From NCBI GenBank assembly GCA_947259875.1, contig CAMYNX010000005.1, positions 1-35,839 on the forward strand: 35,839 nucleotides of DNA, given 5' to 3'. The notes beneath the pieces were generated by a model. It was given only the letters and a program-made list of their open reading frames with translations, did not search any database and had not been told where the DNA came from. Shown here piece after piece: positions 12,541-35,839 of the stretch. The position numbers and the translations under genes were made by a program. How positions within the stretch are numbered: position 1 is the stretch's first letter; each line of letters begins with the position of its first letter. Source of the DNA: an uncultured Gammaproteobacteria bacterium. GTDB taxonomy: Bacteria; Pseudomonadota; Gammaproteobacteria; Arenicellales; JAANXG01.

Positions 12541-12556
12541 TGTACTTGACGCGCTA

Positions 12557-12564
12557 TTGAGACA
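12557..12564. promoter_or_regulatory. Possible distal activator half-site of the wcaJ-like gene
   Basis: TTGAGACA equals the right arm of the palindrome found upstream of the secreted paralogs. If it is the right half of a 20-bp site, that site is centred about 196 bases before the predicted transcription start, the same distance as the distal elements at the other three sigma-54 promoters. Only a half-site is clear, and it lies in eroded sequence, so chance is possible. Confidence 0.35.
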
Positions 12565-12641
12565 ACCCAGAAAGGAGTTGAAGTTATGCATATATCTATT
12601 TGTTAATGAGACAAAAAACCCAGCGATCACGTCCATTATTC

Positions 12642-12661
12642 CTGTCTTAATTCTGAGACAC
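12642..12661. promoter_or_regulatory. Palindromic activator site (about -100) of the wcaJ-like gene
   Basis: CTGTCTTAATTCTGAGACAC matches the perfect inverted repeat at 34072-34091 at 16 of 20 positions. Its centre lies about 100 bases upstream of the start predicted from the sigma-54 promoter at 12726-12740. The placement is typical of enhancer sites for sigma-54 activators. The likely binder is the VpsR-like regulator encoded at 21045-22436; that link is inferred. Confidence 0.6.
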
Positions 12662-12725
12662 CTGGCGTCCACCGGGTGCATCCTCAAGTTCGATTGTTCC
12701 AATGATAACAACGGGTTGTGGTAAC

Positions 12726-12740
12726 TGGCATAAAATTTGC
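12726..12740 (+). promoter_or_regulatory. Sigma-54 promoter of the wcaJ-like gene
   Basis: TGGCAT-N5-TTGC has the GG and GC dinucleotides at exact -24/-12 spacing, with one departure from TGGCAC. Transcription would start near 12752, giving a leader of about 52 bases before the ATG at 12804. The related activator sites upstream add support. Confidence 0.7.
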
Positions 12741-12803: not shown

Positions 12804-14198
12804 ATGCTGAAAAAGTATAACCGGCTGTTTAAGCTCGTCTTATTCTTGTCGGACATCACGTTGATCTCGCTGGCATATCTATTCACCTATTGGGCATTTT
12901 ATGGTTTGGGGCCGAACCCGGAACTGCTGACGGTTGGGCATTTCATTTATCCCATCGTAGTTATCGTCCTCCTGTTTGCTGCTTCGTTCAAGGCCTTCAG
13001 GCTGTATCGGGCATTTCGTGTCACCTCCCCTTTTACCGAGACCCGGGATGTGTTGCACGCATCCGCGCTAAGCCTATTGGCAATAGTGACCGTACTCTTC
13101 TTCTTGGGTGTGTCCGCTTACTCGCGAGATTTTCTCGCTGTCTTCTGGGGCTTGGCTGTCGGTCTTGTTGTGGTCGTACGCTGGAACGCCCGGCAGGTAC
13201 TGAAATATTTTCGCAAGTTAGGATACAACCAACGGCGCGCTCTGATTATCGGAACTGGTCCTTTGGGGCAGCAGATCGTAAAAAAACTCAAGCACCAGAA
13301 CGATCTCGGAATTCGAGTCGTTGGATACATCACCAGAGATACAGCGGAGATCGGGAAAGAAATTCAGGGAATCAAGGTGCTCGGAGGGGAAGAGTTAATC
13401 GATGAGATCGGCCACTACTTAAAAGTAGACCAGGTCTATGTCGCGCTACCTGAAGAGCATGTCACAAAGACTCGAGAGGTGCTCTCCCGGCTTTCCATTC
13501 TTGCTGTTGATCTGCGCATCGTTTCCGAGGCCTCGGAGTTCATGTCTGCGGGAATGTCAGCGGAGCTGTTCGGCAATTTATCCATCACCACCTTACAGGC
13601 GGCACCTATAGACGGCTGGAAAGATTTCCTGAAAAGAAGTTTTGATCTGACATTTTCGTCATTGGCACTATTGGTGCTCTGGCCGTTGCTAATCGCCATT
13701 GCGTTGCTGATTAAAACTACCTCAGCAGGTCCAGTGTTGTTCATTCAACCACGTGTTGGTTACCAGGGACGAATATTTCCGCTGTTGAAATTCAGAACCA
13801 TGTGCCGGGACGCGGAAGGCAAAGATGGCGCTACGTGGACAACACCGGGCGATCCCAGGCGCACCAGCCTCGGGCGCTTTTTGCGCAAATTCAGCCTCGA
13901 CGAATTACCGCAATTTTTCAACGTACTGATGGGTCATATGAGTGTGGTCGGCCCGCGCCCGGAGCAACCGCGATATGTGGAAGAGTTCAGGCAATCGATT
14001 CCTTATTATATGGCCAGACACAAAGTCAGGCCCGGTATTACTGGATTGGCTCAGATCAGCGGATGGCGGGGTAACACGTCGATCCCAGAAAGGATCAAAT
14101 GCGATAATTCATACATACAAAAGTGGTCGTTTTGGCTGGATTTGAAGATTATCGCATTGACGCTGAACAGAGGGATGTTCAATCACAACGCCTACTAG
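12804..14198 (+). CDS. WcaJ/WbaP-like undecaprenyl-phosphate sugar-phosphate transferase
   Basis: This 464-residue polyprenyl-phosphate hexose-1-phosphate transferase initiates EPS synthesis by linking the first sugar-phosphate to undecaprenyl phosphate. The N-terminal half has about four membrane helices (first: LVLFLSDITLISLAYLFTYW), then a Rossmann-like domain (RRALIIGTGPLGQQIVKKL). The catalytic C-terminal domain begins with KRSFDLTFSSLALLVLWPLL and contains PLLKFRTM, FSLDELPQFFNVLMG, MSVVGPRP and RPGITGLAQISGWRG, all signature motifs of the family. A GGGGG Shine-Dalgarno precedes the ATG. It is the first committed step, so its own sigma-54 promoter makes it a control point. Glucose or galactose are both plausible substrates. 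Confidence 0.93.
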   Translation: MLKKYNRLFKLVLFLSDITLISLAYLFTYWAFYGLGPNPELLTVGHFIYPIVVIVLLFAASFKAFRLYRAFRVTSPFTETRDVLHASALSLLAIVTVLFFLGVSAYSRDFLAVFWGLAVGLVVVVRWNARQVLKYFRKLGYNQRRALIIGTGPLGQQIVKKLKHQNDLGIRVVGYITRDTAEIGKEIQGIKVLGGEELIDEIGHYLKVDQVYVALPEEHVTKTREVLSRLSILAVDLRIVSEASEFMSAGMSAELFGNLSITTLQAAPIDGWKDFLKRSFDLTFSSLALLVLWPLLIAIALLIKTTSAGPVLFIQPRVGYQGRIFPLLKFRTMCRDAEGKDGATWTTPGDPRRTSLGRFLRKFSLDELPQFFNVLMGHMSVVGPRPEQPRYVEEFRQSIPYYMARHKVRPGITGLAQISGWRGNTSIPERIKCDNSYIQKWSFWLDLKIIALTLNRGMFNHNAY

Positions 14199-14508: not shown

Positions 14509-14604
14509 CTGCGAGCCTCGATCACCCTCTTGACAGACCAGCAAACTTACTGCACTTTGGTGTTGACGTCTAAATACTTACCAACAAAAGAATGGAGGGG
14601 AATT

Positions 14605-15975: not shown

Positions 15976-16224
15976 TCGTGGATCTACAGTTTCGGTAAGA
16001 CGTATAACGGATTACATCGTATGCCGGACTGAAGGTAGATTGGCAGTGTCTTTCGAAGTTTTGCTCACATGATCAGATTCTCTGCTGCGTGGGGTGTTGA
16101 CTGCGCTCCTTGTTATATCGACTCCTGCTTGCTACGTCTTTTCAACTCACCTAAGCTTTGTAACGAAGGACGCCCATTAGAAAAAAAGGTGTATCGTGTT
16201 TGGCGTATCTGCGGCTCTCTGTCT

Positions 16225-20944: not shown

Positions 20945-21044
20945 AACTGTCGTATGTTATATCCGGTGCGCGAGGGCGGATAAGGACTTGACACGGAGGC
21001 CATTTTTTAAGCACAATTGGGGCTCATACGAGTGGGGGGACTGT

Positions 21045-22436
21045 ATGACAATAAGCAGTGGTTTACCGCTGCCGCGTGATGCATCACCAGATACGCGCAG
21101 ACGGCTTCTTATAATATCTCGCAACGAACCCGACAGCGGTCTTATCGGCCAAACGCGTCCGCAAAGAAATTGGTGCGTCGACGTTTTTCCGAATTTCGAA
21201 GACGCTCAAGATCACGCGTTGATGTACGGGCCGCGGGTGGGTTTGGTCGATTTCGAACTCCTGCAAGACAAAACGCTCATGGGGCGTTGGGACGAGTTTT
21301 GCGTGTCCCATCCAGGAATCGAATGGATAGCGTTACTTCCTAAGGACGTGGAATGCAACGACGAGATCCGCCAACTGATCCGGCAACGTTGTTACGATTT
21401 TCACACTTTGCCTTTAGATGTGTCGCGCCTGCTGGTCACGATCGGCCACGCCTACGGCATGGCTAAGCTTCAATCAAGCCGCTCGATAAGCCCTACAGCA
21501 AAGGGCAACGGAAACGGCATGATGGGCGAGAGTCCCGCGATGCGAGACTTCTGGAAAAAGCTAGCAAAAATCGAGCTGGTTGATACCCCGTTGCTAATTA
21601 GCGGAGAAAGCGGCACCGGTAAGGAACTCGCAGCTCGCGCCGTTCATGATCGATCTCGCCGCAGTGATGGGCCGTTTATCGCAGTTAACTGCGGTTCCAT
21701 TCCACCGACGCTGATACAGTCTGAGTTGTTCGGTTACGAGAAGGGGGCTTTTACCGGCGCCACTCATCGTAAGATGGGAAGAATGGAGGCGGCTGCAGGG
21801 GGTACTATTTTTCTGGATGAGGTCGGTGACCTGCCTTTGGAGTTACAGATAAATCTATTGCGGTTTCTACAGGAAAACACCATAGAAAGAGTCGGTAGCC
21901 ACAAGAGTATTTCAGTGGATGCAAGGGTGATTGCTGCGACACACGTCGATTTGGAGGAAGCAATTAGGGAGAAGCGTTTCCGTGAAGATCTGTATTACCG
22001 GCTAAATGTCATACACCTTGAGGTTCCACCGCTTAGAAAGCGGAGCACCGACATTGGCTTATTGGCCAAATATTTCTTTGAATTGTTTTCCGAGGAAAAA
22101 AGTCCCACTGTGCGAGGCATCAGTCAGAGCGCGATCGATGCGATGTATCGTTATAACTGGCCGGGCAATGTGCGTGAACTCATGAACCGTATGCGTCATG
22201 CGCTAGTCATGTCGGATAGCAGGCTAATTACACCCGCCGATCTCAGGTTGAATGGACTGGAATCGAGCGTAAAAGTCATGCCATTGGAAACGGTTCGTTC
22301 TCTGGCTGAGAAAAACGCGGTCACTCAAGTGTTGAAGGACACCGGGTACAGAATATCGATTGCGGCGCGCCAGCTAGGTGTATCCCGTGCCACGCTATAC
22401 CGCCTGATGACAAAGTACCAGCTTCACAGCGAGTAG
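21045..22436 (+). CDS. VpsR-like sigma-54-dependent transcription activator
   Basis: A 463-residue bacterial enhancer-binding protein. Residues about 20-136 form a receiver-like domain with a single aspartate in GLVDFELL near the phosphoacceptor position, resembling the divergent receiver of VpsR. The AAA+ domain has Walker A GESGTGKE (187-194), the GAFTGA sigma-54 contact loop (234-239), Walker B GGTIFLDEV (252-260) and FREDLYYRLN. The C-terminus is a Fis-type helix-turn-helix (RISIAARQLGVSRATLYRLM). I chose the ATG at 21045, preceded by GGGGGA, over an open TTG at 20988. VpsR activates EPS genes in Vibrio, partly through c-di-GMP; c-di-GMP binding here is not testable by eye. Confidence 0.93.
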   Translation: MTISSGLPLPRDASPDTRRRLLIISRNEPDSGLIGQTRPQRNWCVDVFPNFEDAQDHALMYGPRVGLVDFELLQDKTLMGRWDEFCVSHPGIEWIALLPKDVECNDEIRQLIRQRCYDFHTLPLDVSRLLVTIGHAYGMAKLQSSRSISPTAKGNGNGMMGESPAMRDFWKKLAKIELVDTPLLISGESGTGKELAARAVHDRSRRSDGPFIAVNCGSIPPTLIQSELFGYEKGAFTGATHRKMGRMEAAAGGTIFLDEVGDLPLELQINLLRFLQENTIERVGSHKSISVDARVIAATHVDLEEAIREKRFREDLYYRLNVIHLEVPPLRKRSTDIGLLAKYFFELFSEEKSPTVRGISQSAIDAMYRYNWPGNVRELMNRMRHALVMSDSRLITPADLRLNGLESSVKVMPLETVRSLAEKNAVTQVLKDTGYRISIAARQLGVSRATLYRLMTKYQLHSE

Positions 22437-24185: not shown

Positions 24186-26582
24186 TCATTTAAACCACAG
24201 CATCAAATGCGGCGCCCACTCCGGATGTCCGGCCTGCTCTGCCCCCTCTCGCGAGTAATAGTGGATTCTTCCATTCCTGGTCTCATCACGTTTCTTTATC
24301 ACCCACGCTTTGGCGCCGTCGATTACGTCCTGCGTAACTCCCCATTCCACTGAGGTGCCCTCGGCCATGTCGTTGGTATGCACAACCGGCGCCGCGGTGG
24401 CGTCATCGAATTTTCCACCGCTCCATGGCACACTACAATCCCGCGCAGTGTTGTCGATCGCCTGGTCGGTGCGGCAATTCCAGGTTATCCCCTTACCGCT
24501 CCCCCGGGTCCGTTTTGCCGCACCCACGCCCGCCCACTTGCCGCTACCCTCAACAAAGTTGACCGATGACGGGTGCGCATCCACCGGACGGCCGTTCCAC
24601 CACTTGCCGGGATTCTTGGCGACATGGAGTACCAGTGTCGCGTATTGGACTGCGGCACGGTCCACCTGGGACAGATTGAACTTAACGACCGCGCGCATGG
24701 CCTTGCTCTGATCGTCAGTCTCCTTGAGCCTCAGCCGCGGATTAATGCCCTCATTACGATTCTTTTTCGACAAACTGAGAATGCTGTCCTTTTTTACGTC
24801 AAAACGCGTGCCGGGTTCTGGCGGAATGCATTCCACCCCGCTTAGGATACCCCGGTAGCAAAATTGTTCGCGTAGCACATCCTCATTGATCCCGCCGTTG
24901 AGTTGCCCATCCGCAGCGATAATCTCCAGCGCCGCCTGGGTCATGGTCGCGCCGCAGGGAACCGAAAACTGGGATTCGAGGACGACCTGATCGGTCGTCG
25001 GTCCACCCAGCTCATTACGAATATCCCACAGTGCCCCAGACCAGATCTCTCCATCGTCGTGCTCGTCGTTGACGAGGTCTTGCGGATAGAGCTTGTTGCC
25101 GTCGACGCGGCGCAGGCAGGTGGGATTGCCGGTACGGTATGACGTGCTGTCCCACTCGCCAACACACGCCGCATGCACGGACTGGTATTCCACGTCCCCA
25201 CTATCGGCATAGAAGGAAGCCGCCAGATAGTCGCCAAATCCCTCGCCCATCGCGCGCATGTCGCCGTCGTTTAGCGCGCCCGGCCAACAAGTGTTCTGAT
25301 AACGCTGTATGGCGTGGCCATATTCATGAACGATGATGTCGGCGTCTTCGGCATCATCTACGCCTCCGTCCCCAAACTGCAGCGTGTCTGCGTTGTGATC
25401 GTAATAGGAATTGTCATCGTTGGACCAATGCACGTTCGCCCGGGTCGGGAAGTCTCGAATACCGTTGGGTATGCCCGAATCGTCGTCATAGCCCAGGGTA
25501 TGAATATAACGCTGCACCGAATCCATGGCGTGATAAGCAACCACCTGCTCGAAGCGAGGGTCGCTGCGGTCGTAAAAATACATGCGGTGCGCTGCTTCGG
25601 CGTCGGCGCAACCGTCGGCGCGCGGGCAAGTCGGTGGGTCGTGGCTTGCAACGTCGGCAAATTCACCCTGAAGCAGAGTGCCGTCGTCGAGCCCTTGGAG
25701 CTCGACGTCGATCCGTTCATCGTCCAGCACGAAGTCGGTTGCGTCGGCGTTGTCCGTCAAGGTGGTGTTGCCCGAGGTCTGTACCGGATTGGGCACGTAT
25801 ACGAAACCCCGTCCAGAACCGGAGAAAGCGAGAAGGTTTTCCTGCAGCAGAAGCTCGCCGGTGTTCGCGTCCACGAAGGTCAGGAATTCACCGAGCGGCC
25901 AGCGACTGTGGATCGCCAACTTCCACGCCAGGACCAGCTGCTGGCCAGCCACCGGGAACCAATTCAACTCCGCGTCTGTCGCGGCGCTCAATTCCGGATC
26001 TCCGTCACCTAAATGTTGGCTGAGGGCAGCGGTGGCAATGGTTTCCGCCTCGGCTTTAGAGATCGCGGGCGAGGTGTTTCCCACAACCAGCGGATTGCGG
26101 ATGTAGCCGCTGTGCACTCGATGGATACGCCCACCCGCGTTCTGGACGACCATCACGTAGGCGTTGTACACGGGGTAGCCGGCAAACATCTGTTGAAATC
26201 GCGTATGACTCGTGCTCAGACCACGTTTCGTTTCCAGGGTCTTCAAATCCGCGTCGTCAGCACGCAAATCCAAGCCGTAGGCATGGCCCTTGAGAAAGTC
26301 CCTGGTACTGCGTATAGATTCTGATCGCTTTCCAGGGTGGTCGCACTCGCTGAACGTGGTGACGTTCTTCCAACGACGCGCCGCCGCACAAGGCAAACCC
26401 GCGGCCGGAACTTCCAGACCCGGTGTGGTCGCTAACGCCTGCGCACGCGCACTGGGCCGTTTGTCCTGGATCCCCGGCGTCGGGCCGCCCTTCGCCGCAA
26501 TCACCGGCGAACCATGAGAGAGAAACGCCACCCCCAATAGCAACGCGGCGTATGCGCGGAGACTTGCTGCGCGACGATTCAT
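24186..26582 (-). CDS. Secreted M36/M4-like zinc metalloprotease with DNRLRE-type C-terminus
   Basis: I chose the ATG at 26580-26582 (798 residues), which starts the signal peptide MNRRAASLRAYAALLLGVAF; the open frame goes 19 codons further. A fungalysin/thermolysin propeptide-like region with a PepSY-type part follows (FLTFVDANTGELLLQENLL). The catalytic domain has the zinc site DIIVHEYGHAIQ (about residues 415-426) and the third ligand in GEGFGDYLAASF, as in M36. The last 200 residues (RLRLKETDDQSKAMRAVVKF, WGVTQDVIDGAKAWV, GRIHYYSRE) look like a DNRLRE/CBM-like beta domain, commonly on secreted polysaccharide-associated proteins. Likely an exoprotease acting on or within the matrix. Confidence 0.88.
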   Translation of the reverse strand: MNRRAASLRAYAALLLGVAFLSHGSPVIAAKGGPTPGIQDKRPSARAQALATTPGLEVPAAGLPCAAARRWKNVTTFSECDHPGKRSESIRSTRDFLKGHAYGLDLRADDADLKTLETKRGLSTSHTRFQQMFAGYPVYNAYVMVVQNAGGRIHRVHSGYIRNPLVVGNTSPAISKAEAETIATAALSQHLGDGDPELSAATDAELNWFPVAGQQLVLAWKLAIHSRWPLGEFLTFVDANTGELLLQENLLAFSGSGRGFVYVPNPVQTSGNTTLTDNADATDFVLDDERIDVELQGLDDGTLLQGEFADVASHDPPTCPRADGCADAEAAHRMYFYDRSDPRFEQVVAYHAMDSVQRYIHTLGYDDDSGIPNGIRDFPTRANVHWSNDDNSYYDHNADTLQFGDGGVDDAEDADIIVHEYGHAIQRYQNTCWPGALNDGDMRAMGEGFGDYLAASFYADSGDVEYQSVHAACVGEWDSTSYRTGNPTCLRRVDGNKLYPQDLVNDEHDDGEIWSGALWDIRNELGGPTTDQVVLESQFSVPCGATMTQAALEIIAADGQLNGGINEDVLREQFCYRGILSGVECIPPEPGTRFDVKKDSILSLSKKNRNEGINPRLRLKETDDQSKAMRAVVKFNLSQVDRAAVQYATLVLHVAKNPGKWWNGRPVDAHPSSVNFVEGSGKWAGVGAAKRTRGSGKGITWNCRTDQAIDNTARDCSVPWSGGKFDDATAAPVVHTNDMAEGTSVEWGVTQDVIDGAKAWVIKKRDETRNGRIHYYSREGAEQAGHPEWAPHLMLWFK

Positions 26583-27124
26583 GACGTGTGCCCCCATTCT
26601 TGTGCCATCACCTGCTGGCAAAGGATCGCCAAGGCGCACCGACCAGGTTTCCGGTCAATGTCGGCAATCTTTACACAAACAGGATAGCGACCCCACTGTT
26701 TAGCATCCACCAGCATGTGTCAATCCCCCCACCGCTGGAACCTGCGGAAATAATATCAGTTTTTGTGCCGATTTTACAGTTATCGGCAGGTATTTCTCGC
26801 CAGGATTCAGGGGTCCTGATGCAAGACTCGTGCCCCGGAGCGCTGTGCCTGGAGCGCGACCCATAGCCGTCGAACGAAGCCCAAATCTAAGGTGCACGAG
26901 GACCCGTCAGGGCCGGGGGCAGGGTGAATGCGGAATCACCGGTTATATCGTCTCATTGGCTCGAATTCTGACGGTTTATCGTGGTTTGCGCCCACGGGTG
27001 AGAAATGCGGGTTAGTTGTTCATCGTACCCAACCGGGGACCCATAGCACCCAGTATTAACGCATTGCACATCGACAACTAAGCGGGGTGGGTGTCAGTGC
27101 GTGTCGAGACCCCAATCTCGCGTA
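26583..27124. other. Intergenic region without recognised genes
   Basis: About 540 bases separate the protease start from the FG-GAP protein stop. No reading frame has convincing coding character, and I see no sigma-54 promoter, intrinsic terminator or copy of the palindrome found elsewhere. It should contain the protease promoter; a weak AT-rich segment on the minus strand near 26735-26765 is the best place to look. Confidence 0.5.
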
Positions 27125-28471
27125 TCAGGGTTTGGTTCCCGTTTGGTTAAACCACACCTGAACATGCGGCAAGGCGTCCTCAGGCCTGCTGTCAGCCCGT
27201 GTCTTCGCCGACGCTCGTCCCCCACCCGTGGTGACCGCGAGATCCAAGCGGCCATCGTTGTTCACGTCGCCGACGGCAATGCCCCACGGGACCTCCAATC
27301 CGTCGCGCGGGAGCCCGGTCGCCAACTCGGTCCAACTGCCTTGGCCATCTCCTCGCAACACAAACAAACCAAACCGGCTATTGCGGTGCCGTGTGATGCG
27401 TCCACCCACCACCATGTCCAGGTAACCGTCCCCATCCAGATCCCCCAGCGCCACGGCGAGAGCCCCACCCTGCATCGATGGCATCACGTCAGGCGTTCTT
27501 TGCCACGACCCGTCGGCGTTTTGTAGAAACACCTCCGGCCCGTTGATCCGGTTGCCAACCAGCAGATCCACGCGCCCGTCGTGATTGATGTCCCCCGCCG
27601 CGATGCCCCAAAACAGCCCGCCGACGACAGGCTTAGGCAGGCCGTTGGACCAAGGCTGCCACCACCCCTTTCCATCGCCCCGCCACACCCGCGGTCCGGC
27701 GTAATAGCTGGCCGCCACGTCCACAATGCCGTCACCGTTTATATCCTGCAGCAAAAATTTGGTGGCCCAGCCGCCCCTTTGGATATCTTTATTTTCCGGG
27801 TCGTAGGCACTGGGCAAGCCGTCCACCCCGGTTTCCTCCCAGTTGGTGCCGGTGCCGTCACCGAGATACACGGCGAAACCGCCGCGATCCGAGGCCGAGA
27901 CCACCAGATCAAGAAATCCGTCCTGGTTCACGTCACCCACCGCCAGATGCTCCGCACCGGTAAAAATATTGAGATCGTCTTCCGGTACTTCCGCGGCGAT
28001 CGACGGATTCAAGGCGCCGGTGGTCTGCCGCCAGCGACCTTGGCCGTCCCCCAGGAACACGTACACACCGTTGCAGTGGTCGGCGACCGCCAGATCGAGG
28101 TGCCCGTCCCGGTTTATGTCTCCGAGATCGACGCCGCCGCCGCAGGATCCCTCCTCAACCAGAAGCCCCTTTGATACGTCGGTCCAACTTCCCTGCCCGT
28201 CGCCCAACCACACACCCGCCCCATCGCCCAGACGCAGATGCGCGGCCAGATCGAGAAACCCATCGGCGTTGACATCGGCCAACACGGGCACGCCCTTCCA
28301 GTGGCCGTCTGCCGGGAGACCATCGGCGGCGAGCGTAAAGCGCAACGTCTCGGGTTCGGTCCCATGCCCTGTTGCCGACGGCTCGATCGTTTGCTGCGTC
28401 GTGCAAGCACCGATCCCAATAGCGACTAGCGTCGTGAGTGCCAACTTGCGGTGATTCTGTACGTACGTCAT
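27125..28471 (-). CDS. FG-GAP/VCBS beta-propeller lipoprotein
   Basis: The 448-residue product has a lipoprotein signal with lipobox IGAC. The rest is about seven FG-GAP/VCBS repeats, each with a calcium-binding-type loop: DVNADGFLDLA, DINRDGHLDLA, DVNQDGFLDLV, DINGDGIVDVA, DINHDGRVDLL, DLDGDGYLDMV, DVNNDGRLDLA. Seven units fit one seven-bladed propeller, a fold used for binding protein or glycan ligands outside the cell. It is a full-length paralog of the protein at 30071-31417. It lies downstream of the secreted-paralog gene at 28690 with a 218-bp gap, so the two may or may not be cotranscribed. Ligand unknown. Confidence 0.87.
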   Translation of the reverse strand: MTYVQNHRKLALTTLVAIGIGACTTQQTIEPSATGHGTEPETLRFTLAADGLPADGHWKGVPVLADVNADGFLDLAAHLRLGDGAGVWLGDGQGSWTDVSKGLLVEEGSCGGGVDLGDINRDGHLDLAVADHCNGVYVFLGDGQGRWRQTTGALNPSIAAEVPEDDLNIFTGAEHLAVGDVNQDGFLDLVVSASDRGGFAVYLGDGTGTNWEETGVDGLPSAYDPENKDIQRGGWATKFLLQDINGDGIVDVAASYYAGPRVWRGDGKGWWQPWSNGLPKPVVGGLFWGIAAGDINHDGRVDLLVGNRINGPEVFLQNADGSWQRTPDVMPSMQGGALAVALGDLDGDGYLDMVVGGRITRHRNSRFGLFVLRGDGQGSWTELATGLPRDGLEVPWGIAVGDVNNDGRLDLAVTTGGGRASAKTRADSRPEDALPHVQVWFNQTGTKP

Positions 28472-28689
28472 AGGCGATCATTGTTAATTAAGACTGCTTA
28501 CGTTGGCACATACTTCGAGGTCCTGAATTTGATTCGCGGCCATGTTTCGGCAACGGGGATCGCCGCGCGTTAATCGCATCTTACCAACTCGGATCGGTGC
28601 TATTGGCAGTATAGCTGGTTAAAACACGGCCCTAGAAAAACAGGGCTTCGTGACTCCAAGCGCTGTTTTTCATCTACGCAAACTGGATT

Positions 28690-29772
28690 TCAGTTTTTTT
28701 CTGGAGGGTCGTCTTCGCCGACTCTAAACTGGATGCTACCGGATTTCTTTCCCGCGTGATTCAATGTTACCGCGGCGTTGCTATTGCCGACACCGGTAGC
28801 GCCTGCGCCGCTGTCGAAGATTTCGTAGTCGGTGACGAGCACGCCAAGGAGTCCGTATCCTTCCTCGGATTCGGCGCGGAAATGCGCAGAGTTCGTCTGC
28901 AACTGACCGAACGTGAAGATGTCTGACGCCATGTCAATCTCGCTGTAGTTCGGCGCCGTGTTACCAAGAACCATACGCCACCAACTGTCTGCCGACTCGC
29001 GTGCGCCGCTGACTTTCAAGTTGTCTTCATTCCAGACGTCAAACGTAATGGTCTGCGGCATGGGATTAGCTAATCCAACCGGTGACAGGTCCTGGGTGCA
29101 GCTCGAGACCGACAGGAAATTGCCGACGATCCCCACTCGCGCAGTTCCAGGAAGGGAGATGACGGCTGCTTTAGGACTGAAATGGCCGATGACGTATCGC
29201 CCGCACTGGTCATACGCGCCATCACCCGCGGTGCCGTTCAGCTCGAGGGTTCCGGGCGTCGTTCCGACCTGTTGCTTGTTCTTTACGCCGCGGGCGTAAG
29301 ACTGATAAGCGTTGTAGGTGTAAGCAGTCTCGTCGCTAGTATCAATGACGGTGGCAGTGCCCGACAGGTGATTCCATTTGACTTGCGTGCCGCCGCCTTT
29401 GGTCACCGCCCAGCACAGCAGTTGGCCGGTGCCGGTAGTCGTGTTGGGAAAGTCGGGTACCGGAATCGTGCCGTTCCCGTCTTTCGCCTCCCAGTGCGCG
29501 GGTTGGTTCTTTTTCAGCTTGAACATGAAATCCAGCGTTGGTTTGACCAGCGGGTCGTCGGTGAACTCACCGTAATAACACATGACATTGATAGCCTGGG
29601 TGTTGTCGTTGGTGAGGCGAATTATCGTATTCCGCTCGCCCGAAGTGTCGATCTCGGGGAAGATGACCAGGCTGCCCTTCTGTGTGGTGTTAACGACATT
29701 CGGCGCCGCCGGCGCGCCGCTGGCAAATAACAATATCCCTAGCGCTGTCCCGCCTAGCAGTAATCGGATCAC
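28690..29772 (-). CDS. Secreted protein of unknown family (third paralog)
   Basis: A GTG start at 29770-29772 follows GGTGGGG. The 360-residue product has a signal peptide ending in APAAPNVVN. It is a diverged paralog of the two proteins at 32590 and 34229, sharing NTTQKGSLVIFPEI, NTIIRLTNDNTQ, YYGEFTDDP, QLLCWAV, KWNHLSGTATVID, CGRYVIGHFSPK, LSVSSCTQ and EGYGLLGVLVTDYEI, and four conserved cysteines that could form two disulfides. It lacks the extra Cys-bearing loop seen in the others (after MNLGSC). I do not recognise a named family. A sigma-54 promoter precedes it. Probably extracellular, all-beta; function unknown. Confidence 0.8.
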   Translation of the reverse strand: MIRLLLGGTALGILLFASGAPAAPNVVNTTQKGSLVIFPEIDTSGERNTIIRLTNDNTQAINVMCYYGEFTDDPLVKPTLDFMFKLKKNQPAHWEAKDGNGTIPVPDFPNTTTGTGQLLCWAVTKGGGTQVKWNHLSGTATVIDTSDETAYTYNAYQSYARGVKNKQQVGTTPGTLELNGTAGDGAYDQCGRYVIGHFSPKAAVISLPGTARVGIVGNFLSVSSCTQDLSPVGLANPMPQTITFDVWNEDNLKVSGARESADSWWRMVLGNTAPNYSEIDMASDIFTFGQLQTNSAHFRAESEEGYGLLGVLVTDYEIFDSGAGATGVGNSNAAVTLNHAGKKSGSIQFRVGEDDPPEKN

Positions 29773-29823
29773 GACAAGTCCCCACCCGTCATTGAATTAT
29801 GCAGATTTACTCACACTACCGCT

Positions 29824-29838
29824 GCAAACATCGTGCCA
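29824..29838 (-). promoter_or_regulatory. Sigma-54 promoter of the third paralog
   Basis: On the minus strand TGGCAC-GATGT-TTGC is an exact consensus -24/-12 element. Predicted start near 29812, about 40 bases before the GTG. Confidence 0.82.
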
Positions 29839-29902
29839 TGTACAGTAACTCGTTGTTTTTATATGAGAATTGAATAGGATAGACAGACCGGCGACCGCCG
29901 AC

Positions 29903-29922
29903 TGTCGCACATCTCAACACCG
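29903..29922. promoter_or_regulatory. Upstream element near -100 (third paralog)
   Basis: TGTCGCACATCTCAACACCG is shared almost exactly with 33977-33996 and 35618-35637, each centred 98-101 bases before the predicted start. The surrounding sequence of this copy has otherwise diverged, so conservation suggests a bound site. Confidence 0.6.
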
Positions 29923-29997
29923 AAATCAGCCGGATATTGGATAACTTTATAAATAAAACAGCAGCTTGTAGACGCTAAGTCAGCTGAACTCTGGAAT

Positions 29998-30014
29998 GTG
30001 TCACTATTGAGACG
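29998..30014. promoter_or_regulatory. Upstream element near -195 (third paralog)
   Basis: GTGTCACTATTGAGACG is a shortened, imperfect version of the palindrome at 34072-34091, centred about 194 bases before the predicted start. It is the least perfect of the set but sits at the same distance. Confidence 0.5.
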
Positions 30015-30070
30015 TCCGCATTGCATCCGGCGCGCCAGAAACAGCGCCACCGGTGATTACGCGACTACGA

Positions 30071-31417
30071 CTAGCGGGCGGTGGCCCCAGTGGTATTGAG
30101 CCACACCTGAACGTAGGGTAGCGGTCGATGATCGCCTTTATCTGGGTTGACGCCACGCATCGGTTGTGTGTTTATCGCCAAATCCGGCCGTCCGTCGCGG
30201 TTTACGTCGGCCACGGCAATGCCCCAAACCGTGCCCAGCCCATCGGTCGGCAGTTCGGGGGCATCCGTCTGGGTCCACTGACCGCGGCCGTTTCCCCTGA
30301 GCACGAACACGCCGTACGGCGCATTCTTTATTCTCTTTAGCCGGCCAGCGAAGACCATATCCAGGTGGCCGTCGGCGTCGAGATCGGCCAGCGCGATGGC
30401 ACGGGCACCTCCCAGCAATGTCGGCGCCACGTCGGGGGTCCGTTGCCATGAACCGTTCGCGTTCTGCAGAAACAATTCGGGACCGTTGACCTCGTTCGCG
30501 ACCAACAAATCCAGCCGCCCGTCCTCATTCGTATCGCCGACCGTGATACCCCAAAAAATTCCGCCAATGCTCGGGGTGGGCAAACCCGTCGACGCCGGCC
30601 GCCAACCCCCTTTGCCGTCGCCCTTCCACACCCTTGGCCCGCGGTAGTAACTGGCCACGACGTCAAGGTGGCCATCGTCATCGATATCTCGCAGCAGGAA
30701 CTTGGTGGCCCATCCCCCCTGCTCCGGATCTATGACCTCCGGATCATCGTGGCTGGGGAGACCGTCTTTGCGGGTCTCGGTCCACGTGGTTCCCGAGCCA
30801 TCTCCCAGGTAGACGCTGAAGCCACCGCGATCGGACCCGGCGGTCACCAAATCCAAGAATCCGTCCTCGTTCACATCGCCGACCGCCAGTTGCTCGGTGC
30901 CGCCAAATGGGCTGGCCCCACTGGCAACTTGGTCGGTGTGGAAGATCTCCGGATTGAGTTCGGTGGTCGTCACCCGCCAGTGACCGCGCCCGTCCCCGAG
31001 GTAAGTGAAGGTCCCTGTGCAGTGGTCACCCACCGCCATATCGAGATGTCCATCACGATCAATATCACCGAAATCGAGACCACCGCCACACGTACTCCCA
31101 TCGGACGCCCGGCGCAGACCCTGCGACGCGTCGGTCCAGCCTCCCGCTCCGTCACCCAGCCACACCTGCGCCCCATCGCCGAGCCGCGGGTACCCCGCGA
31201 GGTCGATCAGGCCGTCGGCGTTGACATCGGTAAACACCGGTGTGGATTTCCACCGCCCCGCTTGCGGGAGCCCGCTGGCGGCAAGCACAAAACGCAAGCG
31301 CTCGGATTGACCGGCTGACGCGTCCGTGTGCACGGTCGCTGGTTTTCCGGTGCAGGCCGCCAACCCACTCAACACCAGTAACCCCAGAACTTGGGGCAGC
31401 TTAGCGGTCTGATTCAT
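30071..31417 (-). CDS. FG-GAP/VCBS beta-propeller lipoprotein (paralog)
   Basis: 448 residues, the same length as its paralog at 27125 and alignable throughout. The lipobox is LAAC. Repeats include DVNADGLIDLA, DIDRDGHLDMAV, DVNEDGFLDLV, DIDDDGHLDVV, DTNEDGRLDLL, DLDADGHLDMV and DVNRDGRPDLA. The ATG at 31415-31417 is preceded by GAGGAT, which lies across the stop of the NTF2-like gene, leaving a 12-bp gap, so the two genes are an operon and translation may be coupled. Likely an outer-membrane or surface-anchored binding protein. The paralog has no NTF2-like neighbour. Confidence 0.87.
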   Translation of the reverse strand: MNQTAKLPQVLGLLVLSGLAACTGKPATVHTDASAGQSERLRFVLAASGLPQAGRWKSTPVFTDVNADGLIDLAGYPRLGDGAQVWLGDGAGGWTDASQGLRRASDGSTCGGGLDFGDIDRDGHLDMAVGDHCTGTFTYLGDGRGHWRVTTTELNPEIFHTDQVASGASPFGGTEQLAVGDVNEDGFLDLVTAGSDRGGFSVYLGDGSGTTWTETRKDGLPSHDDPEVIDPEQGGWATKFLLRDIDDDGHLDVVASYYRGPRVWKGDGKGGWRPASTGLPTPSIGGIFWGITVGDTNEDGRLDLLVANEVNGPELFLQNANGSWQRTPDVAPTLLGGARAIALADLDADGHLDMVFAGRLKRIKNAPYGVFVLRGNGRGQWTQTDAPELPTDGLGTVWGIAVADVNRDGRPDLAINTQPMRGVNPDKGDHRPLPYVQVWLNTTGATAR

Positions 31418-31429
31418 CTGCGATCCTCA

Positions 31430-32302
31430 TTATGGTGACACCCATTTTCTGGCCGCGTTCTCGGCGGCCCGTTGCGGGTCGGTTTTATCTTTCACGCGCC
31501 GATACCACTGACCGTCCGTCTTCACCCACGCGTCAATCTTGACCAATTGCTTGGTTCCCAACTTCGCCAGGCTCGGATCCTGCGGGCGAATGCCTACGGC
31601 GACCTTCGCCCGGCCCCGCGCCCCTAACACCTCGGCCCATTCGATGTGCGCTGACGAATAGGCAACAGGCGGCCTGTTGGCAATAAAAGCGTCCAGCGAG
31701 ACGCGGGCCCGGTACCCGGGCTCGAGATACCGGTACACGGTTTCCCAATCACCGGCTGCTTGCGCGCGCCAAAACGCGCCTACGCGTTTGGCCAGCTCGG
31801 CCTCTGCCGCCGCCGGCCGCAGGTGCGGCGGGCGGCTGGGGAATGCCGCCCGGGTGCCTTTGGGGATCGGATGCCATTGATCCAGTCGCTGCCAAACATG
31901 CCAGAACGCATTTCGCGTTGGCGGTGTGTCCGGAATATCGATCATCCGGTATTCGTATTGCACGTGGGCCCATGCGAGGTCACCACTAATCGCCACCTCG
32001 CTCACCTTCGCATTCACCCACCGATACGGCCTTTTTTCTTTTTGCTCGACGAACTTAGCCTCGTTGGCCTTCGATCGGTCGGCAGGCGACAAAAAACGAT
32101 ACTCTTCAGCATAGTCCGCGGCGACCCTGGCGTCCCAGAACGCCTTGACCCGCTGCTCGAGCAAACCGGCCTCGTCGTCGGCGCGCACTGCAGAACCCAC
32201 CCACGGCAGCAGCGCACAAAGCAGCCCAGACAAGACCGTGGTCGCAACGCGGAGACCGCGCGCGCGCCGCGGGAGACAGACTATGGAACGAGATAAGCGC
32301 AT
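31430..32302 (-). CDS. Secreted protein with two NTF2/SnoaL-like domains
   Basis: I chose the ATG at 32300-32302 (290 residues); a TTG seven codons upstream is open. A signal peptide (VATTVLSGLLCALLPWVGSA) is followed by two similar domains, each starting with a helix pair: RVKAFWDARVAADYAEEYRF and RVGAFWRAQAAGDWETVYRY. Each continues into a strand-rich half (WAHVQYEYRMID; AKVAVGIRPQD) and a tryptophan-rich end. This matches NTF2-like folds, used for small-ligand binding or as protein scaffolds; no catalytic residues are evident. The gene is first in the operon with the FG-GAP lipoprotein. No sigma-54 promoter was found in the 230 bases upstream. Confidence 0.7.
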   Translation of the reverse strand: MRLSRSIVCLPRRARGLRVATTVLSGLLCALLPWVGSAVRADDEAGLLEQRVKAFWDARVAADYAEEYRFLSPADRSKANEAKFVEQKEKRPYRWVNAKVSEVAISGDLAWAHVQYEYRMIDIPDTPPTRNAFWHVWQRLDQWHPIPKGTRAAFPSRPPHLRPAAAEAELAKRVGAFWRAQAAGDWETVYRYLEPGYRARVSLDAFIANRPPVAYSSAHIEWAEVLGARGRAKVAVGIRPQDPSLAKLGTKQLVKIDAWVKTDGQWYRRVKDKTDPQRAAENAARKWVSP

Positions 32303-32533
32303 GGGTTCAGCATGGGTCGACAATCAATCATCAACAAGCAACGAATAATTCTGCTACGAATTGTCCGCGCACGACAAATAGGAAATTATAGTGCAGTTTT
32401 CATTTTTTTCTATTGATCCATCAAACTCGTAATCGATGGCACGCGGTACCTCCCTAGGCCGCAGGAATGCGCGAATCAATCGGAGGTTGCTTAATGATAA
32501 TAGACGAAAAGTGGAAAATCGAGAACACAAAAA

Positions 32534-32563
32534 AGGAGGCAGAAGGGATTCCTTCTGCCTCCT
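32534..32563 (-). terminator. Intrinsic terminator of the first tandem paralog
   Basis: A perfect 13-bp stem, AGGAGGCAGAAGG with loop GATT on the plus strand, is followed on the minus strand by a run of T. It lies 27 bases after the stop at 32590. The same stem ends the second tandem paralog. Confidence 0.93.
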
Positions 32564-32589
32564 CGGCAATAAGTCTTCAGCTTGACGAC

Positions 32590-33780
32590 TTATTTCTTCT
32601 CAGGAGTGGGGAGATCCGGTTGCCATGAAATAGATCCCGTTCTTTTCCCAGCATGGTGCGTCGTCACCGAGTTGATGTCGTAGTCAGTAAAAGCTGGGGA
32701 CCCGCGATCATCCAGGTCATGGACGATAACGCCCAGCAACCCATATCCGGGCTCGGTCCCGGCTGAGTTCAGAAACGACTCGGCACGAAAATAGCCATTA
32801 TCGGATTCTAGGATGTCTTGCGTAAACACCTCGGGATTGACATCGATTTCCGAATAGCCTGCGTCGGTTGTATCGATGCACTTATCGCCGTTGTCGCAAG
32901 AGCCCAAGTTCATCCGCCACCAGCCGTCCGCTTTCTCCTTGGCGCCCGTTCTCTTGTTCTCATCATCATCCCACACCGTAAACACGATCCAATGGGGCAG
33001 TACCACCGCGTTCCCGACCGGGATCAGGTTTTGGGTACAGCTCGAGACACTCAGATAGACGTCGTCCACGTTTACCCTCTCCGGTGGTTCAGTTGTGGCG
33101 CCCATCGGGCCGAATGCGCCGAGGATGTAGCGACCGCACTTGTCGTATGCACCCTCATCTTTTTTGGTGCCGTTCAGATCCAGCCGACCCGCCACGTCTC
33201 CAACCTGCGACTTGTTCCCGGTCTGGTTGCGACCAAAGAATGAAAACGCGTTGTAGGCGAAAGAGGTGTCATCACCCGGATCGATGATCGTGGCCGTACC
33301 AAAAAGATGATTCCACTTGACCTGCGTCTCTCCGGAATTGCTCACCGCCCAACAAATGAGCTGACCAGCATCAGAAACGTCGCTTTGATCTGGAAAGTCC
33401 GGCATCTGTTTCGTGCCGTCGCCATCTCTGACCTCCCACCATATCGAATGATTTCGCGTCAGCGTAAACTCAAAGTCGGTTGTCGGCTTCTGCCCAGGTG
33501 TGTCCAGTTTGTTGTCGCTATCAAACGTATCAAAAGCGTCTTGGTCCGTGAATTCACCATAGAAGCATTTCACCTGGATATTGCCGGTGTTGTCGTTTGT
33601 CATGCGGATGATGGTATTCCGGTCATCGGTAAGTTCACCGGCGTCACCGCCGGCTTGGATTTCGGGAAACACCAACAGGCTGCCCTTTTGCGACGTGTTA
33701 GCTATATTCGGCGCCGCCAGTGCGGTGGTGCCAAACAGGGCCAACGATACCGCCGTCCCCACCAATGTGTATCGTTTCAT
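32590..33780 (-). CDS. Secreted protein of unknown family (tandem paralog 1)
   Basis: The start at 33778-33780 (MKRYTLVGTAVSLALFGTTA) follows GAGGAG and matches the paralog's start, so a longer open frame to 33888 is discounted; it would also begin inside the leader. The 396-residue product has a signal peptide ending in ALA-APN. Conserved blocks include NTSQKGSLLVFPEIQAGGDA, IIRMTNDNTGNIQVKCFYGE, LICWAVSNSGETQVKWNHL, YDKCGRYILG and GYGLLGVIVHDLDD. A loop with two cysteines (LGSCDNGDKCIDTTDAGYSE) is shared only with the neighbouring copy. One identical run of over 30 residues around WDDDENKRTG is shared with it. No known family recognised; likely extracellular. Confidence 0.85.
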   Translation of the reverse strand: MKRYTLVGTAVSLALFGTTALAAPNIANTSQKGSLLVFPEIQAGGDAGELTDDRNTIIRMTNDNTGNIQVKCFYGEFTDQDAFDTFDSDNKLDTPGQKPTTDFEFTLTRNHSIWWEVRDGDGTKQMPDFPDQSDVSDAGQLICWAVSNSGETQVKWNHLFGTATIIDPGDDTSFAYNAFSFFGRNQTGNKSQVGDVAGRLDLNGTKKDEGAYDKCGRYILGAFGPMGATTEPPERVNVDDVYLSVSSCTQNLIPVGNAVVLPHWIVFTVWDDDENKRTGAKEKADGWWRMNLGSCDNGDKCIDTTDAGYSEIDVNPEVFTQDILESDNGYFRAESFLNSAGTEPGYGLLGVIVHDLDDRGSPAFTDYDINSVTTHHAGKRTGSISWQPDLPTPEKK

Positions 33781-33897
33781 CGTATTTCTCCTCAGATGTT
33801 GATATTCACGTTTCAAAAAACATTCACATACAAGCGGAACCGGGTAAGTCGTAAGCCCTCGTACCATCGCGTAGGAATGTCGTCGCAATTAACTACC

Positions 33898-33912
33898 GCA
33901 AAGACTGTGCCA
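33898..33912 (-). promoter_or_regulatory. Sigma-54 promoter of tandem paralog 1
   Basis: Minus strand TGGCAC-AGTCT-TTGC, exact consensus spacing. Predicted start near 33886, with a leader of about 106 bases. An AT-rich block, TAACAATCTGTTTTTAAA, lies just upstream and is identical in the second unit. Confidence 0.85.
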
Positions 33913-33976
33913 CATTCCATAACAATCTGTTTTTAAATAACAATTCATCCATGATGTCGCTGCGCAAGCGGCACTA

Positions 33977-33996
33977 TGTCGCAGATGCCAACACCG
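33977..33996. promoter_or_regulatory. Upstream element near -100 (paralog 1)
   Basis: TGTCGCAGATGCCAACACCG, centred about 100 bases before the predicted start; the left arm TGTCGCA resembles the palindrome arm while the right arm is weak. Confidence 0.6.
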
Positions 33997-34071
33997 CGCT
34001 TGGTGCGTGTACCGGCATATTTCCGATGTAATACAGATACTTAAGCACCGAACCTCGTCTTGGACCTTGGC

Positions 34072-34091
34072 GTGTCTCAAGTTTGAGACAC
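34072..34091. promoter_or_regulatory. Perfect palindrome near -195 (paralog 1)
   Basis: GTGTCTCAAGTTTGAGACAC has two exact 9-bp arms around GT. It is centred about 195 bases before the predicted start. It is the clearest member of the set and suggests binding by a dimeric regulator. Confidence 0.72.
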
Positions 34092-34175
34092 GCGACGATC
34101 GCGTGGGATTGCGACCGCAATGGGCGCGACTATCAATTTACGGTGATTGCGGGGAATGCGGGGCGCACAAGAAAA

Positions 34176-34205
34176 AGGAGGCAGAAGGTGTCCCTTCTGC
34201 CTCCT
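34176..34205 (-). terminator. Intrinsic terminator of the second tandem paralog
   Basis: The same 13-bp perfect stem as at 32534 (AGGAGGCAGAAGG / CCTTCTGCCTCCT) with loop TGTC, followed on the minus strand by TTTTTC. It lies 24 bases after the stop at 34229. Confidence 0.93.
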
Positions 34206-34228
34206 GCGCCAGTCATTATTGTTACAAC

Positions 34229-35413
34229 TTATTTCTTCTCAGGGACCGGGGCATCGGGATGCCACACAATATATCCCATCCTGCTGCCAGCATGGTGCGT
34301 CGTCACGGAGTTGATGTCGTAGTCACCACTACCGCTATCATCCAGGTCATGGACGAGAACGCCCAGCAACCCATATCCAGGTTCGGTCCCGGCTGAGTTC
34401 AAAAACGACTCGGCACGGAAATAACCATTATCGGATTCTAGGATGTCTTGCGTAAAAACCTGGGGATTGACATCGATTTCCGAATAGCCTGCGTCGGTTG
34501 TGTCGATGCACTTGGAGGCGTCGTCGCAAGAGCCCAAGTTCATCCGCCACCAGCCGTCCGCTTTCTCCTTGGCGCCCGTTCTCTTGTTCTCATCATCGTC
34601 CCAAACCGTAAACACGATCCAGTGCTCATTAGCTTTCGCATGCCCGACCGGTACCAGGCACTGGTAGCAGCTCGACACACTCAGGTAGAGATCGTCCACG
34701 TGTACATTCTCCGGGCCCTCAGTTACGCTGCCCACCGGGCCGAATTGGCCAATGATGTAGCGGCCGCACTTGTCGTACGAGCCGTCATCTTTGCCAGTGC
34801 CGTTCAGATCCAGTCGACCCGCAACGGGTCCAACCTGCTTCTTGTTCTTCTGGCCGCGGGCAAAGAATGACCACGCGTTGTAGGCGAAAGAGGTGTCATC
34901 ACCCGGATCGATGATCGTGGCCGTCCCTAAAAGATGATTCCACTTGACCTGCGTTTGTCCGTCACTCGCGTCCCTCACCGCCCAACAAATGAGCTGACCA
35001 GCATCAGATACGTCGCTTTCGTCTGGAAAGTCCGGCATCTGTTTCGTGCCGTCGCCATCTTTGACCTCCCAAAAGACGGAATGATTTCGCGTCAATGTAA
35101 ACTCAAAGTCAACGGTCGGCTTTTTCCCCTGGGTTACCAGTTTTTTTTCACTATCAACCGTATCAAAGGCCTCTTGGTCGGTGAATTCACCATAGAAGCA
35201 TTTCACCTGGATATTGCCGGTGTTGTCGTTTGTCATGCGGATGATGGTATTCCGGTCATCGAAGAGCTCACCGGCGTCACCGCCGGCTTGGATTTCGGGA
35301 AACACCAACAGACTGCCCTTTTGCGACGTGTTAGCTATGTTCGGCGCCGCCAGTGCAGTGGTGCCAAGCAGGGCCAACGATACCGCCGCCGCCGCCATTG
35401 TGTATCGTTTCAT
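34229..35413 (-). CDS. Secreted protein of unknown family (tandem paralog 2)
   Basis: A 394-residue product starting MKRYTMAAAAVSLALLGTTA, with a signal peptide cut near ALA-APN. It aligns along its whole length with tandem paralog 1. Differences cluster in one loop (RYIIGQFGPVGSVTEGPENV) and in the cysteine segment, which reads SSCYQCLVPVG here against SSCTQNLIPVG there, adding a cysteine. Aspartate-rich segments (WDDDENK, HDLDDSGSGDYD) could bind calcium, but there is no formal motif. It has its own sigma-54 promoter and terminator, so it is a single-gene unit. Function unknown; a structural matrix or surface role is inferred from context only. Confidence 0.85.
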   Translation of the reverse strand: MKRYTMAAAAVSLALLGTTALAAPNIANTSQKGSLLVFPEIQAGGDAGELFDDRNTIIRMTNDNTGNIQVKCFYGEFTDQEAFDTVDSEKKLVTQGKKPTVDFEFTLTRNHSVFWEVKDGDGTKQMPDFPDESDVSDAGQLICWAVRDASDGQTQVKWNHLLGTATIIDPGDDTSFAYNAWSFFARGQKNKKQVGPVAGRLDLNGTGKDDGSYDKCGRYIIGQFGPVGSVTEGPENVHVDDLYLSVSSCYQCLVPVGHAKANEHWIVFTVWDDDENKRTGAKEKADGWWRMNLGSCDDASKCIDTTDAGYSEIDVNPQVFTQDILESDNGYFRAESFLNSAGTEPGYGLLGVLVHDLDDSGSGDYDINSVTTHHAGSRMGYIVWHPDAPVPEKK

Positions 35414-35540
35414 CGTACTCCACCCCAGTGTTTCAACTTGTTGATCGCTACATTATTCGAAAACCCTTGAACACCTGCACCACCGCGTGCGTCGTTCGCC
35501 CTCGTCCTTGCGGGGACGCATGGTGTCGCATAAAAAGCCC

Positions 35541-35555
35541 GCAAAGAATGTGCCA
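35541..35555 (-). promoter_or_regulatory. Sigma-54 promoter of tandem paralog 2
   Basis: Minus strand TGGCAC-ATTCT-TTGC, exact consensus. Predicted start near 35529, leader about 116 bases. Confidence 0.85.
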
Positions 35556-35617
35556 ATTACATAACAATCTGTTTTTAAACAACAAATCATCCAAGTTATC
35601 GCCGCACAAGCCGACCA

Positions 35618-35637
35618 TGTCGCACATCTCAACACCG
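35618..35637. promoter_or_regulatory. Upstream element near -100 (paralog 2)
   Basis: TGTCGCACATCTCAACACCG, identical over 20 bases to the element of the third paralog at 29903, although those two promoter regions are otherwise strongly diverged. Centred about 98 bases before the predicted start. Confidence 0.65.
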
Positions 35638-35712
35638 TGCTTGTTACGCACGCACCCAAATTACGGATGTAATACAGATAGTTGAGCGCCGAACCTCGTC
35701 TTACACCTCGGC

Positions 35713-35758
35713 GTGTCGCAATTATGAGAGGCGTGACGATCGTGCGGAATTGCGACAC
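35713..35758. promoter_or_regulatory. Upstream element near -195 with extra half-site (paralog 2)
   Basis: GTGTCGCAATTATGAGAGGC (35713-35732) corresponds to the palindrome of paralog 1 and is centred about 193 bases before the predicted start. A further AATTGCGACAC at 35748-35758 is the exact reverse complement of its left arm, so this promoter may carry an additional site. Confidence 0.6.
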
Positions 35759-35839
35759 AAATGCGCCCGACTTGCAGTTTGGAAAGATCGACGGGCAGGC
35801 AACGAACTCAAGAGCAATCGGGACACAAATTTGCGCTTA

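Follow-up and report, generated by a model that had tools for sequence, protein, structure and literature searches.

This analysis concerns 35,839 nucleotides of contig CAMYNX010000005.1 from an uncultured gammaproteobacterium (hereafter, the window). The window carries an exopolysaccharide gene cluster, a regulator gene and three paralogous genes for predicted secreted proteins. The subject here is the set of sigma-54 promoters upstream of these genes, together with the elements that accompany them. The genes in question are as follows.

12804..14198, plus strand: undecaprenyl-phosphate glucose phosphotransferase, first gene of the exopolysaccharide run (TIGR03023 over cut-off)
20988..22436, plus strand: likely cognate activator, with a VpsR domain, a sigma-54 AAA+ domain containing GAFTGA, and a Fis-type helix-turn-helix
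28690..29772, minus strand: secreted paralog 1, family unassigned, secretion judged by eye from the N-terminus
32590..33780, minus strand: secreted paralog 2, family unassigned, with a terminator-like hairpin after the gene
34229..35413, minus strand: secreted paralog 3, family unassigned, with a terminator-like hairpin after the gene

Promoters and upstream elements in the window

A first-pass annotation of this DNA had proposed that each secreted paralog has an exact TGGCAC-N5-TTGC promoter. All three are indeed present at the positions it gave, and a related promoter precedes the exopolysaccharide operon. We number positions from start sites predicted from the sequence, with the first G of GG at -24, and refer to a genome of the same genus as G002.

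29824..29838, minus strand: promoter of paralog 1, exact TGGCAC-N5-TTGC, predicted start 29813; kept in G002 (contig C10)
33898..33912, minus strand: promoter of paralog 2, exact TGGCAC-N5-TTGC, predicted start 33887
35541..35555, minus strand: promoter of paralog 3, exact TGGCAC-N5-TTGC, predicted start 35530
12726..12740, plus strand: promoter of the exopolysaccharide operon, TGGCAT-N5-TTGC, predicted start 12751; kept in G002

These promoters agree with the sigma-54 consensus TGGCAY-N5-TTGC (GG at -24, GC at -12), and rpoN is present in the genome (499.4 bits; cut-off 277.35). The exact form TGGCAC-N5-TTGC occurs three times in the window, where 0.04 occurrences are expected, and none of 100 shuffled sequences contains three. 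However, the genome as a whole (G000; 4.59 Mb, about 91% complete) has 23 matches, versus 15 for the reversed form, so the promoter motif carries little weight by itself and it is the upstream elements that count. A scan of 26500-35839 for sigma-70 promoter-like sites yielded 5 versus 4.9 expected and is thus uninformative on a sigma-70 alternative; terminator-like sites in that region number 13 versus 9.0 expected.

Two elements lie further upstream. The proximal element, CGGTGTTNNNATNTGCGACA, is a pattern derived from the three proximal sites of the secreted paralogs themselves; allowing up to two mismatches, it has three matches in the window, all exact and all at these promoters, where 0.07 are expected. 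Given these counts for promoter and proximal element, we rule out a chance origin. The palindrome TGTCTCA-N4-TGAGACA, at up to three mismatches, has five matches in the window versus 1.17 expected, a number reached by 1 of 100 shuffles. The five are spread over four promoters, as the distal sites of the three paralogs and two sites ahead of the exopolysaccharide operon.

29903..29922, minus strand: predicted proximal activator site of paralog 1, CGGTGTTGAGATGTGCGACA, centre -98.5
33977..33996, minus strand: predicted proximal activator site of paralog 2, CGGTGTTGGCATCTGCGACA, centre -98.5
35618..35637, minus strand: predicted proximal activator site of paralog 3, CGGTGTTGAGATGTGCGACA, centre -96.5
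29997..30014, minus strand: predicted distal activator site of paralog 1, variant palindrome with 2 mismatches, centre -192.5
34073..34090, minus strand: predicted distal activator site of paralog 2, perfect palindrome with 0 mismatches, centre -194.5
35714..35731, minus strand: predicted distal activator site of paralog 3, variant palindrome with 3 mismatches, centre -192.5
12643..12660, plus strand: predicted proximal activator site of the operon, TGTCTTA-N4-TGAGACA (1 mismatch), centre -99.5
12547..12564, plus strand: predicted distal activator site of the operon, 3 mismatches, centre -195.5; the promoter-side half TGAGACA is exact and kept in G002
12607..12613, plus strand: extra TGAGACA of the operon promoter, at -144; not kept in G002
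35524..35530, minus strand: further TGCGACA half-site of paralog 3, on the predicted start and 94 bases downstream of the proximal site

The centres of proximal and distal sites are separated by 94, 96 and 96 bases in paralogs 1 to 3, and by 96 bases in the operon promoter. The spacing is therefore kept in the third paralog, as had been claimed. The first-pass annotation had centred the elements at -98 to -101 and -193 to -196; this layout applies to all three promoters, although the exact distances differ by a few bases. Likewise, its distal sites are the palindrome or variants of it, yet only that of paralog 2 is perfect. TGMGAC or variants of it are present in both proximal and distal sites, but within a promoter the proximal site is not a mere copy of the distal one, because it is a poor fit to the palindrome (mismatches at 6, 7 and 6 of 14 positions in paralogs 1 to 3).

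A third element, AAACAANNNNTTR, begins 45 bases (44 in a single promoter) ahead of the predicted start, with at most one change, in the promoters collected here (see below), from which this consensus was written. It resembles the IHF consensus, WATCAANNNNTTR, and an ihfA-like gene over its cut-off is present in the genome; IHF would be the likeliest protein to bind this element.

29846..29858, minus strand: IHF-like element of paralog 1, AAACAACGAGTTA, at -45
33920..33932, minus strand: IHF-like element of paralog 2, AAACAGATTGTTA, at -45
35562..35574, minus strand: IHF-like element of paralog 3, AAACAGATTGTTA, at -44
12706..12718, plus strand: IHF-like element of the operon, TAACAACGGGTTG, at -45

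Conservation and further promoters

We exploited the fact that G002 carries a similar locus: the 15 window proteins that were compared occur there in the same order, with best matches 73-91% identical. G002 has four secreted paralogs, one of them cut by a contig end, and the counterparts of paralogs 2 and 3 are on a separate contig. The secreted-protein family was found in 2 of 41 genomes, with G002 its sole carrier among 40 relatives; of 274 genomes sampled from the class, one has it at E <= 1e-10, which is the present one (this sample does not contain G002). All five corresponding G002 promoters, i.e., those of the operon and of secreted-protein genes, retain the promoter and the proximal, distal and -45 elements, sites and spacing alike, although the G002 operon has a proximal site of which only the promoter-side half is well kept (5/14 mismatches to the palindrome). 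Nor are such pairs of sites scattered at random through the genome. Two copies of TGMGACA with 74-104 bases between them occur six times in its 4.59 Mb (three times for the reversed pattern), and four of the six are in the window; a start-to-start distance of exactly 96 bases occurs in just three pairs, all at sigma-54 promoters.

A genome-wide search for the palindrome with at most one mismatch gave three matches outside the window, two on contig C35 and one on C297. Contig C35 encodes three proteins that combine an SdrD-B-like domain with collagen triple-helix repeats, at these positions of the stretch C35:8000-27000.

4663-6123: first SdrD-B/collagen-repeat protein
13361-15085: second SdrD-B/collagen-repeat protein
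15593-16972: third SdrD-B/collagen-repeat protein

Each of these genes is preceded by an exact TGGCAC-N5-TTGC and each has the full -45 element (3/3). Their proximal sites (GGTGTCACGATTGAGACG and variants) have three palindrome mismatches each, and the distal site is 93-95 bases from the proximal one. A sulfatase with TPR repeats is encoded between the collagen-like genes (9350-12178 of the same stretch).

The collected promoters thus number 12: seven from the present genome (four in the window and three on C35) and five from G002. In all 12 the distal site is present with 0-3 of 14 mismatches, the -45/-44 element with at most one mismatch, and TGMGAC in the proximal site. It is important to emphasize that these complete counts arise partly by construction, because promoters were selected by half-sites or palindrome and then served to define the -45 consensus: half-sites spotted by eye led to the operon promoter, and the palindrome to two collagen-like promoters, while the third came from the list of exact TGGCAC-N5-TTGC matches, being on the same contig. 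As a control, we considered the other 17 exact sigma-54-like matches in the genome. Their best distal scores are 5-9/14 mismatches, so none of the 17 qualifies, and one of them, on contig C59, has the -45 element at no more than one mismatch. At random window positions (20,000 draws, true sites included), the distal criterion was reached in 0.2% of cases and the -45 criterion in 0.4%.

The single control match on C59 precedes what appears to be a decayed secreted-protein gene (about 2122-2569 of the stretch C59:12500-16548), with weak matches to the start of the secreted protein (E 0.01) and to its C-terminus (E 0.0005 and 0.001), and with stops. It has TGAGACG at the proximal place, and its -45 element, AATCAATCGGTTA, fits the IHF consensus exactly; this promoter probably belongs to the same family too. 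Contig C380 has a -45-like element with two mismatches and no distal dyad.

We also searched with a strict pattern, combining half-site and promoter, and with a sequence-only model spanning about -117 to -21 and built from nine promoters (four from this genome and five from G002). The strict pattern occurs at four places in the genome, all within the window, and its reversed form at none. In the relatives it adds one G002 place (C325) and five scattered in other genomes (G004, G006, G010, G029 and G032), with three occurrences of the reversed form in 41 genomes; the four extras that were scanned (C325, G004, G006 and G010) have a single half-site each. The model recovers its own four sequences in the present genome at E <= 2.7e-15 (next 0.076) and its own five in G002 (next E 0.17). 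Nothing near these nine was found in 21 genomes, with 150 first-look candidates scored per genome; the best match elsewhere is partial (G015, E 0.003).

It might be supposed that the layout was merely inherited through duplication of genes along with their upstream DNA, since the three secreted genes are paralogous, two of them have similar upstream DNA, and two of the three collagen-like genes share long, near-identical upstream and leader DNA. When promoters of the paralog-1 type are compared with those of the paralog-2/3 type (10 pairs), however, identity is 66% in the distal site, 91.5% in the proximal site, 76% in the -45 element and 83% in the promoter, versus 38.8% in the spacers, although the element columns had been chosen as conserved. 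This difference argues for selection rather than recent copying and largely refutes duplication as the explanation. Moreover, neither the operon gene nor the collagen-like genes are homologues of the secreted-protein genes, and still they have the elements at the same distances. We therefore regard mere inheritance as very improbable. The same layout before non-homologous genes is the reason for reading these promoters as one regulon, which suggests a regulon of at least seven promoters, serving the exopolysaccharide operon, three secreted proteins and three collagen-like proteins. This set is larger than that of the first-pass annotation, which had neither the operon promoter nor the -45 element nor the collagen-like genes.

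The candidate activator and known systems

The regulator encoded in the window matches the VpsR domain (PF20161) with 60.5 bits (cut-off 23.7). Its orthologue in G002 is 86% identical and in the same place, while the best match by E-value in the other 39 relatives is 47% identical. In both genomes, the polysaccharide gene run ends with this gene, which may therefore share a transcript with its presumed target operon, an arrangement that would constitute positive feedback. The regulator, which the first-pass annotation had nominated as 21045-22436, is a plausible cognate of the sites. A single TGTCGCA half-site is located upstream of its gene, at 20852.

Receiver domains need a particular lysine. 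In an alignment with the PrsR protein of the same genome (see below), this lysine is replaced by leucine in both the activator and its G002 orthologue, although the usual phosphorylation aspartate is kept; of the N-terminal acidic residues, two are alignable in the activator and none in the orthologue. These changes make control by a kinase doubtful and control by a ligand possible. Among 20 window proteins scanned with Pfam, there is no histidine kinase. In an alignment with FleQ, the activator does not keep the residues that we take to be FleQ's contacts to cyclic di-GMP (c-di-GMP).

Among published systems, the PEP-CTERM box with PrsK/PrsR comes closest. In it, an activator motif ending in TTTACA precedes a sigma-54 motif by an average of 62.8 bases, ahead of many exported-protein genes and usually near polysaccharide loci (Haft et al. 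2006, PMC1569441). The promoters described here are similar in having an upstream motif and a sigma-54 motif before exported-protein genes, in their link to exopolysaccharide, in the Fis-type enhancer-binding protein proposed, and in the 62-65 bases between TGMGACA and TGGCAY. These similarities raise the possibility that the regulon is of the kind we propose but is activated by another enhancer-binding protein, e.g., PrsR of the genome's PEP-CTERM system. A separate PrsK/PrsR pair is indeed encoded on contig C134 (PrsR 734.9 bits, cut-off 502.6; PrsK 710, cut-off 300), and the nearest NCBIfam model of the window's regulator is PrsR (TIGR02915), although its score is below the cut-off (396.3 versus 502.6 bits). 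However, the sites here end, by eye, in TGMGAC and not TTTACA, they come as two sites at a fixed distance plus a -45 element, and the regulator has a VpsR-type rather than a normal receiver domain. Neither Pfam nor NCBIfam gives a PEP-CTERM match in the three secreted and three collagen-like proteins. The motif ending, the targets and the regulator's score together rule out membership of the PEP-CTERM box. At the PrsR locus itself there are two sigma-54-like sites, and the one with TGAGACA 93 bases before TGGCAC lacks the distal dyad (8/14 mismatches) and the proximal one (9/14). As the window's regulator, in contrast, ends the polysaccharide run in both genomes, we consider activation by PrsR or another such protein unlikely.

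Loci around other regulators, 41-50% identical to that of the window, were scanned on C213 and C134 of the present genome, C40 of G005, C87 of G010 and C53 of G006. No sigma-54-like sites were found in the scan at C213 or at C53 of G006. There are two at C40 of G005, including one within the regulator gene, and one at C87 of G010, in both cases with no half-sites. On C134, the region 5051-11386 contains PrsK/PrsR and two exosortase-associated acyltransferase genes over cut-offs; one of these acyltransferase genes has a sigma-54-like site upstream of it, at 6128.

Like Vibrio cholerae VpsR and V. vulnificus BrpR, which control biofilm polysaccharide, the regulator is a VpsR-type enhancer-binding protein with a presumed polysaccharide target, and the BrpR sites, of 18-21 bases, fit a palindrome as the predicted sites here do (PMC8268162, PMC3162934, PMC5552954). 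However, the GAFTGA of V. cholerae VpsR is reported to be damaged (PMC3162934), and the protein to act without RpoN (PMC5552954), whereas the present regulator has an intact GAFTGA and its presumed targets are preceded by sigma-54 promoters. SypG of V. fischeri is an RpoN-dependent activator of polysaccharide genes with two upstream sites at qrr1, and its reported site TTCTCANNNTGMDWN is, by eye, like half of TGTCTCA-N4-TGAGACA (PMC10162802, PMC5552954), but it is termed a response regulator in PMC5552954. In Burkholderia cenocepacia, RpoN and BerB, an enhancer-binding protein with GAFTGA, control biofilm polysaccharide; unlike the present regulator, BerB is reported to lack an N-terminal input domain; it is also reported to bind c-di-GMP, and it acts through berA (PMC5552954). 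Among the titles and abstract starts listed in searches of an open-access library, we found no sigma-54 regulon of a VpsR-domain activator that includes collagen-like proteins. The parts would be known and their combination new: a predicted matrix regulon that depends on sigma-54 and on an activator of the VpsR type, and that differs from the PEP-CTERM/PrsR box.

A predicted matrix regulon

We consider it probable that these sigma-54 promoters depend on an activator and together serve one extracellular-matrix regulon, whose activator is most likely the cluster's own VpsR-domain protein. An enhancer-binding protein, most likely that encoded at 20988-22436, would bind two operators about 98 and 194 bases upstream of the start. 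With 93-96 bases between them, or about nine turns, these operators would be on the same face of the helix. An IHF-like protein at -45 would bend the DNA, and the bent DNA would let the bound AAA+ oligomer reach sigma-54 RNA polymerase at -24/-12 and open it. The exopolysaccharide polymer and the putative matrix proteins would be switched on together. Conservation and the independent target genes lend good support to the enhancer role that had been proposed in the first pass, the role itself being predicted from sequence.

Several observations weigh against this interpretation. At E <= 1e-60, the regulator has 10 matches in the genome, itself among them. Both the strict pattern and the model missed the three collagen-like promoters, the pattern because their proximal half-site ends differently and the model giving one of them, at E 1.9; the regulon is therefore not delimited. 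The -45 element is 1-2 changes from WATCAANNNNTTR in eight of the nine scanned promoters where it was found, and three of the nine have an equally good IHF-like match elsewhere. Finally, the proximal element has 5-7/14 mismatches to the distal palindrome in all seven secreted-protein promoters, and five in the G002 operon, so that two proteins could be involved.

With two proteins, the distal and proximal elements would bind an activator and a co-regulator or repressor, respectively or in the other order, and the latter protein might also bind near the start. The half-site TGCGACA at the predicted start is compatible with such a role and is possibly a shut-off operator: it is exact in paralog 3 and in two of the three promoters on contig C306 of G002, or 3/7 secreted-protein promoters (the operon and collagen-like promoters were outside that scan). 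It stands 94-96 bases past the proximal site at 35524-35530 of the window and at 6673 and 8462 of locus L008, and is altered in two more promoters. However, both sites of the window's operon promoter are palindrome-like (1 and 3 mismatches), and the collagen-like proximal sites, with three mismatches each, look intermediate between the two forms. We therefore think it rather doubtful that different proteins bind the two elements.

Returning to a single activator, we give about even chances to a more specific proposal, i.e., that a VpsR-type activator with a retained sigma-54 contact runs the matrix regulon through a rigid design of two operators, spaced by one loop length, and a bending site at -45. 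If true, this would represent the condition that Vibrio VpsR, which acts without sigma-54, may have left behind. A single further VpsR-domain match occurs in the genome; it has GAFTDA and lies beside (by eye) another polysaccharide locus. A sigma-54-competent and a probably sigma-54-incompetent VpsR-domain protein would then occur in one genome, making VpsR's exit from sigma-54 directly testable. The analysis also offers, from sequence alone, a target set for one switch, and a likely matrix-protein role for an orphan secreted family and for collagen-like proteins encoded on a different contig from the polysaccharide genes. The fixed geometry of the 12 promoters provides a natural series for studying looping between operator pairs.

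Some features of the neighbouring genes may be recorded. Downstream in the exopolysaccharide run are sulfotransferase, flippase-like and polymerase-like genes, and the polysaccharide cluster has three sulfotransferase-family genes (8476-9312, 16069-17220 and 18660-19499), so the polymer of the cluster may be sulfated. Upstream of the gene at 14530-15408, at about 14220-14510, is a stretch that by eye resembles a degraded second copy of it; the corresponding place in G002 has no room for the gene. Two FG-GAP repeat proteins (27125-28471 and 30071-31417) flank secreted paralog 1, and their order is the same in G002.

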